A stretch of 64,000 bases of DNA, taken from Balneola sp. (GTDB taxonomy: Bacteria > Bacteroidota > Rhodothermia > Balneolales > Balneolaceae). Of the stretch, positions 25,488-27,183 are shown piece by piece. Position 1 is the stretch's first letter; each line of letters opens with the position of its first letter. The notes beneath the pieces were generated by a model, which did not search any database, was not told where the DNA came from, and was given only the letters and a program-made list of their open reading frames with translations. The position numbers were made by a program, and so were the translations under genes. The stretch is taken from NCBI GenBank assembly GCA_017640785.1, contig JAEPPZ010000008.1, positions 1 to 64,000 of the forward strand, in the 5' to 3' direction.

Positions 25488-25666
25488 GCTTATTTGAAGT
25501 TTTAAGAATATTAATTGAATCCGATATGGATTCAAAATTTCCTTTAGTCATCGTCTCTCAGCTTTGGGATAGCCTGTATAAGTTCCTTAGAATTATTTGA
25601 TGGATCATTAACCAGTTCCGGTACTCTATATACCGCTAAATCCGGTATTAATTGCGTGTCCTGAAA

Positions 25667-26197
25667 CTAAGATTGCAGTACCTCCTTTTCATTTCCTTTT
25701 ATCCATTGCTCAAAATTCTCGGGATCTAAAATACAAGGCATAGTAGGCTCTAGTGGCTGAAGCAGTACATTTGATGCTTTTGTAATTACAGCAAATTCCA
25801 ATGACTTCTTTCCGCTCTTGTCTTCAGTTTCCTGATACAGCCCTGCCAACCCCAGCACCTCTCTTCCCAACATTCTTATATAAAAAGGGTATTTATCATC
25901 TACAGATTGCTTCCACAAATAAAACCCACTGGCCGGAATCAGACACGGTTTTAAGTTCATATATTTTATCGAATCCTCTTCTACTTCATTTTTGCTGAAG
26001 CTTGTGATCTTTTCATTTTGTGAGCTAATTCCCCAAACTGCTGATTTAATTTTCCGCTCAGAATCATGAAAAACTACAGGCATTGGAGATCCCGGAAAAA
26101 CATTATATGAAGGATCGAATAATGATTCAGAAGATGAAGTTACATCAAAAACTTCTTCAACAATTTCTTTCTCTGCATGCAAAACATATCTTTTCAT
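25667..26197 (-). CDS. SRAP-fold protein lacking the catalytic residues (degenerate YedK/HMCES family)
   Basis: A 176-residue protein recognisable as SRAP by YNVFPGSPMPVV (31-42), AVWGI (53-57), CLIPASGFYLW (85-95), LGLAGLY and FAVITKASN..MPCILDPENFEQWI. Active SRAP proteins need an N-terminal Cys2 that crosslinks to abasic sites. Here the N-terminus is MKRY instead of MCGRY, the catalytic Glu of GFYEW is L94, and the His of IHxRMP is E150. The NARxET region is shortened and altered. It probably cannot form the abasic-site crosslink but may still bind DNA. It is shorter than typical members (about 220). Confidence 0.78.
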   Translation of the reverse strand: MKRYVLHAEKEIVEEVFDVTSSSESLFDPSYNVFPGSPMPVVFHDSERKIKSAVWGISSQNEKITSFSKNEVEEDSIKYMNLKPCLIPASGFYLWKQSVDDKYPFYIRMLGREVLGLAGLYQETEDKSGKKSLEFAVITKASNVLLQPLEPTMPCILDPENFEQWIKGNEKEVLQS

Positions 26198-26268: not shown

Positions 26269-27183
26269 ATGAATATTCTTTACAATAATTCTGAACAGAG
26301 GTTCCGGGCCGGAATTCGAATCTTGGTTTTTCTGGTTATCTCTGTTCTTTTAATTGCACCTTCAGGATTTGTCTCGATTAGCTGGGTTGCTTCGCTCCTT
26401 ATTTCCTTAGGATGCTTCATAGCTGCTTTTTTTGCTGTAAAGGGTATGGATAAAAGACCTATTTCTTCGATTGGTCTCGAGGTCTCAAAAGTATGGTGGA
26501 TAGAGTTTAGGCTCGGAGTTTTTATCGCTTTTCTAGCCCAGACCATCATTTTTTCGATCGAATACGGATTTTCCTGGCTGGAAATTACAGGTTACGGTTG
26601 GCAAAGAGCAGGTATTGAAATGTGGGGATGGTCAGCGTTTACATACTTCATGACAATGCTTTCAGTTGGGTTTTATGAAGAACTGCTGTTTCGAGGTTAC
26701 CCCATAAAAAACTTAGCTGAAGGATTTACTTTCGGAAAGATTACTTCTAAACAAGCTTCATGGATTGCTGTTATTTTAACATCAGTACTTTTCGGTTTTG
26801 CCCATGCAGGAAATCCAAATGCATCTGCAATTTCTACCTTTAATATTATTCTGGCGGGCTTTATGCTCGCTGTTCCATTTCTATTGACCGGAAGGCTGGC
26901 AATTTCGATAGGAATTCACTTTTCATGGAACTGGGTAATGGGTGGAATTTACGGATTACCTGTAAGCGGACTTGATGGAAGACGGTCTGTGCTCCAAACA
27001 AACGAAATTGGTCCGGATATTTGGACGGGTGGTAAGTTTGGACCCGAGGCCGGGTTGCTGGGAATTTTAGGGATGATTTTTATTCTGATCTCTATTCTTT
27101 TATATGCCCGAAAACAAAATCCCTCCGGGAAGTTAGAACTCCATGAGAGTTTTAGGAGTGATTACAAGAAAGTGAATGAATAG
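26269..27183 (+). CDS. CPBP family intramembrane metalloprotease
   Basis: A 304-residue polytopic membrane protein with the CPBP/Abi motifs: EELLFRG (E137, E138, R142), FGFAHAG (H179) and GIHFSWN (H217, N221). These form the glutamate/histidine active site of Rce1-like proteases, so it is probably catalytically competent. Substrates of bacterial members are mostly unknown; some act in bacteriocin immunity or regulated proteolysis. It is divergent from the SRAP gene and followed by a repeat island. Confidence 0.88.
   Translation: MNILYNNSEQRFRAGIRILVFLVISVLLIAPSGFVSISWVASLLISLGCFIAAFFAVKGMDKRPISSIGLEVSKVWWIEFRLGVFIAFLAQTIIFSIEYGFSWLEITGYGWQRAGIEMWGWSAFTYFMTMLSVGFYEELLFRGYPIKNLAEGFTFGKITSKQASWIAVILTSVLFGFAHAGNPNASAISTFNIILAGFMLAVPFLLTGRLAISIGIHFSWNWVMGGIYGLPVSGLDGRRSVLQTNEIGPDIWTGGKFGPEAGLLGILGMIFILISILLYARKQNPSGKLELHESFRSDYKKVNE

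Follow-up and report, generated by a model that had tools for sequence, protein, structure and literature searches.

The unusual reaction for which SRAP proteins are known is the formation of a thiazolidine crosslink to abasic sites. In YedK, the Escherichia coli member, Glu105 is essential besides Cys2, and the C2A/E105Q variant has lost most lyase activity (PMC9436759). The stretch of DNA analysed here (the window) comprises the first 64,000 nucleotides of Balneola sp. contig JAEPPZ010000008.1 and contains an SRAP-domain open reading frame (25667..26197, minus strand; 176 codons and a TAG) that starts with MKRY, has no Cys2 and carries Leu94 at the Glu105 position and Glu150 at the His160 position. 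The Pfam SRAP profile (PF02586) matches its residues 3-171 with an E value of 6.7e-32 and 111 bits (cut-off 27.1), an NCBIfam search gave only a weak subfamily match far below its cut-off, and the matches of a PDB sequence search include YedK, BT_1218 and HMCES. Alignment to YedK pairs Leu94 with Glu105 and Glu150 with His160, places a shortened loop at Asn75/Arg77 and leaves Cys2 absent, which agrees with the MKRY start, the L94 and E150 replacements and the shortened NAR region described in a first-pass annotation of this DNA. The YedK sequence in this alignment agrees with the YedK stretch in the PDB sequence match. A missed upstream MCGR start was rejected, since the frame extends just 10 codons upstream of the ATG and none provides such a start. 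The same genome holds a second SRAP, which is canonical and begins MCGRY (G000:C18:130693).

Matches were found in 98 of the 116 relatives searched. When copies scoring at least 171 bits against a profile of 51 members were counted, a Cys-less orthologue was present, as one copy each, in 77 of 92 sampled Balneolaceae genomes and in 18 of 21 genera (77/92 and the 26/77 given below were tallied by hand from the search tables). Inspection showed that even the lowest-scoring copy (G134) belongs to this Cys-less type, and one further genome of the family has a Cys-less SRAP split between contigs. The protein is absent from three genera (g5, g16 and g21), mostly with small genomes, and from a few incomplete genomes; named members in a public genome set are Gracilimonas mengyeensis, Aliifodinibius and Balneolaceae MAGs. 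Across a sample of 394 genomes of the phylum, no copy with group-like scores was seen outside the order; the group score alone does not separate, as canonical copies of the L062 type in family f4 reach 180 bits. In a tree of 110 SRAP proteins, 52 Cys-less family sequences lie on one side of a branch whose support is 100 once three long rows are left out. The Cys-less copy is the sole SRAP found in 26 of the 77 genomes (17 of these at least 95% complete), a count that rests on assemblies of which some may be incomplete. A general role as partner of a canonical SRAP was rejected on account of these 26 genomes. Decayed SRAP fragments with several stops occur in two relatives (G047:C68:390-9096 and G116:C28:93669).

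The orthologues with the same substitutions that the first-pass annotation had suggested seeking do exist: all 53 aligned members are without both Cys and Glu. Because Cys2 and Glu105 occur in 0/53 group members and His160 in 2/53, against 53/53 canonical SRAPs for each, the joint absence of the three residues is, judged from the alignment, not due to chance. Asn75 is found in 2/53 members (52/53 canonical) and Arg162 in 19/53 (53/53 canonical), the latter being lost in the genus of the window, and the Asn75/Arg77 loop is gone across the whole group together with the Trp67 region. The Glu105 position is occupied by K, I, L, V or M, most commonly by Lys (28/53), and by Leu or Met in the genus of the window. 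R4, YN37, W61, GFY and MP are kept in all or nearly all members, and new residues have become fixed or nearly so: a Lys after the GFYxW motif (50/53 versus 28/53 canonical), PF, RV and a C-terminal VND..NN..ELIQPIPK. Similarly, Phe116 is present in 53/53 members versus 14/53 canonical copies, Arg203 in 53/53 versus 13/53 and Asp210 in 50/53 versus 1/53.

Two side observations concern other SRAPs. The SRAPs of L121 and L129 (Geobacteraceae MAG) keep Cys2 (MCERF/MCDRF) but have Lys at the Glu105 position and Asn at the His160 position, and so represent another degenerate active site. In the canonical copies of the window's genus (L001 1501-2178 and L104-L106), YWW follows the fourth strand instead of xWG, and the loop is two residues longer.

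The gene next to the SRAP encodes a CPBP/Rce1-like intramembrane protease (26269..27183, plus strand), transcribed divergently across a 71 bp gap. This neighbour is conserved in Balneolaceae, where it is divergent from the SRAP with a gap of up to ~150 bp, and it also adjoins a canonical SRAP in a sister family. The order DEAD-box helicase, CPBP protease, SRAP, MscS channel and SecG is kept in most Balneolaceae genera, and no DNA-repair or SOS genes were seen in this conserved order. Because the SRAP that these genes flank in sister family f3 (L214-L216) is a canonical MCGR protein, gene order indicates that the loss of the active site took place at this locus and not in a stray duplicate. Family f5, another family of the taxonomic order, has a second Cys-less SRAP group (L064 1495-2145 and L069 1495-2136), one member of which still has the Glu, and the Cys-less SRAPs of L231/L232 adjoin the same CPBP gene; a single origin of the f5 and Balneolaceae Cys losses is not rejected (p-AU 0.417).

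Pairwise dN/dS values are 0.06-0.12 within the window's genus, the window copy included, and 0.05-0.08 for Cys-less SRAPs of other genera. Canonical copies give similar values where these are measurable (0.04-0.10; one pair is saturated). Purifying selection is thus the outcome of the dN/dS comparison that had been proposed with the original call, and because species of the same genus show 0.06-0.12, the active-site substitutions are, by this measure, maintained and not a product of decay. At the level of sequence, we demonstrate common descent, loss in place and purifying selection; 18 of 21 genera retain the protein, and another SRAP is frequently lacking. The first-pass reading of the gene as a maintained, non-crosslinking YedK/HMCES relative is strongly supported for the family by orthologues, tree, dN/dS and synteny, but it does not extend to the window copy, which is truncated by a TAG.

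That annotation had taken the frame to be intact and free of stops, and here it was mistaken. The TAG at codon 177 (25667..25669, minus strand) is in frame and cuts off the last 40 codons; because four same-genus orthologues have Gln (CAG or CAA) at this position and reach 217 amino acids, position 25667 is, by comparison with them, a premature end of the window gene and not its native one. The 40 codons stranded in this way encode the native C-terminus (25547..25666, minus strand; FQDTQLIPDLAVYRVPELVNDPSNNSKELIQAIPKLRDDD), hold the most conserved motif of the group, VND..ELIQ.IPK, and are followed by the native stop TAA of the 217-codon gene (25544..25546, minus strand) and, just 3' of it, by a terminator-like inverted repeat (25515..25535, minus strand; a consensus match only). 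PF02586 and the family profile both extend past the TAG into these codons, and positions 4-213 of 214 of PF02586 are covered when the TAG is read through. Among 77 family-genome copies, that of the window is the only one with a stop. Its tail has two synonymous and no non-synonymous differences from that of L005, so that the stop is, on this comparison, either very young or an error. The same tail (25547-25666) is nearly identical to that of L005 (dS 0.08) and distant from that of L004 (dS 1.5), and the first 176 codons are about equally far from both (dS 0.34 to L005 and 0.29 to L004); because of this difference, recombination between species near the stop is possible.

The TAG could also be taken as a sign that the window gene is a decaying pseudogene whose unusual residues arose through that decay. 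We consider this highly improbable: in 18 genera, orthologues that are intact and under selection lack these residues too, the window copy itself falls within the dN/dS range of 0.06-0.12, and the tail past the TAG has a dN near 0. The stop is therefore probably recent and unrelated to the substitutions. Decay as the cause of the substitutions was rejected by the intact orthologues and dN/dS; only the stop, as a final step, may still reflect it.

Mapped onto the predicted full-length structure, the truncation shortens helix 170-179 at its end and takes away strand 187-191 and two short helices, along with the invariant R191 and V192, the VND block and IQPIPK. Because a strand of the barrel is among the 40 residues removed, as is the conserved motif, the window copy is probably non-functional, unless the TAG base is a sequencing error. 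A full-length protein might be made in this strain if the TAG were read through or the assembly were wrong; the tail shows no relaxed selection, and TAG and CAG differ by one base. Readthrough is unlikely, however, because TAG is an ordinary stop here, used by 11 of the window's 39 long ORFs, and no amber-suppressor anticodon was found among 34 tRNAs, on which ground suppression was rejected. Production of the full-length form in this strain therefore appears doubtful to us.

An AlphaFold2 model of the full-length form, with the TAG read as Gln, has a pLDDT of 91.5 and matches YedK (6kbz_H) in VIA-align with a Z of 25.7 and an rmsd of 2.1 over 203 residues. This is the highest Z among the rows listed, each of which is either an SRAP chain or an unnamed structural-genomics chain with the SRAP fold. 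The initial assignment to the SRAP fold is thus upheld by the Pfam profile and by the structure prediction that had been recommended for checking it.

The earlier suggestion that a DNA-binding scaffold persists, giving a binding-only protein that recognizes an abasic site or an ssDNA or 3' junction without a crosslink and recruits or shields, draws on this preserved fold and on the R4, YN37, W61, GFY and MP residues. It is weakened by the group-wide loss of the Asn75/Arg77 loop, the known DNA-contact loop of SRAP proteins, and of the Trp67 region, by the loss of Arg162 in most members and by the conserved neighbourhood without repair genes. Mean net charge also points away from DNA (-10.5 in the group versus -4.0 in canonical copies), which is weak evidence because YedK itself has -8. 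We regard binding of this kind as conceivable but unlikely.

Taken together, the residue losses are expected to eliminate crosslinking along with the greater part of the lyase activity. The expectation that all known crosslinking chemistry had gone is sound for Cys2 and Glu105, whose loss would abolish crosslinking, but the exchange of His for Glu alone would not abolish the chemistry, because YedK H160E is merely threefold slower (PMC9436759). Some residual chemistry may persist through the N-terminal amine, with R4 and the general pocket being kept. The initiator Met is expected to stay in 25/25 of the copies that are one residue shorter (starting MK, ME, MQ or MN) and to be removed in 25/28 of the longer copies, which have a small second residue, and Met1 of the model aligns structurally to YedK residue 2. 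In this model, a free N-terminal amine could sit where Cys2 stood, and reversible aldehyde binding through an imine alone, without a thiazolidine, would therefore be possible, making the protein an aldehyde or abasic-site sensor or a slow lyase. The match in N-terminal register may be a coincidence, as the short form is one clade and close to one event, and we consider such imine chemistry improbable.

We favour, with a probability of roughly 0.7, a Balneolaceae-wide SRAP orthologue that lost its crosslinking site in place, kept its fold and was repurposed as a non-covalent scaffold, the window copy being truncated. The ancestral SRAP lost Cys2, Glu105, His160, Asn75 and Arg77 at its original locus but not its fold, and residues new to the protein became fixed, among them those at the C-terminus (VND..NN..ELIQPIPK). 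From this conservation, we infer that the Cys-less SRAP may act non-covalently, as an adaptor or binding protein, with a protein or nucleic acid partner that would contact the re-fixed surface and the C-terminal motif. In the genome of the window, one TAG would then have removed the last 40 residues, or a base was misread. A fold that a whole family keeps under strong selection without its crosslinking parts, and which is often the sole SRAP, suggests a second, non-covalent use of the SRAP fold, and the group offers a natural separation-of-function set for SRAP roles besides crosslinking. The automatic label 'SOS response-associated peptidase' or abasic-site protein is probably wrong for it; our literature search found no description of such a Cys-less SRAP group.

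Compared with known systems, the full-length form has the same fold as YedK and the HMCES SRAP domain (Z 25.7 and 23.5), and the group keeps their YN37, W61-G, GFY-W, MP and V..VN..LI blocks. Unlike YedK and HMCES, it is without Cys2, Glu105, His160, Asn75 and Arg77, its NAR loop is shorter and its C-terminus is new (VND..IQPIPK). The best PDB sequence match is BT_1218 (PDB 2f20), a Bacteroides SRAP of the same fold from another order. The group shares with the canonical SRAP of sister family f3 (L029, L031 and L214-L216; MCGRYTLYSDKK.IE..F) the place between the CPBP protease and MscS/SecG and a similar C-terminal half (LTTEANALMQPLHDRMPVI), whereas the f3 protein has a complete active site.
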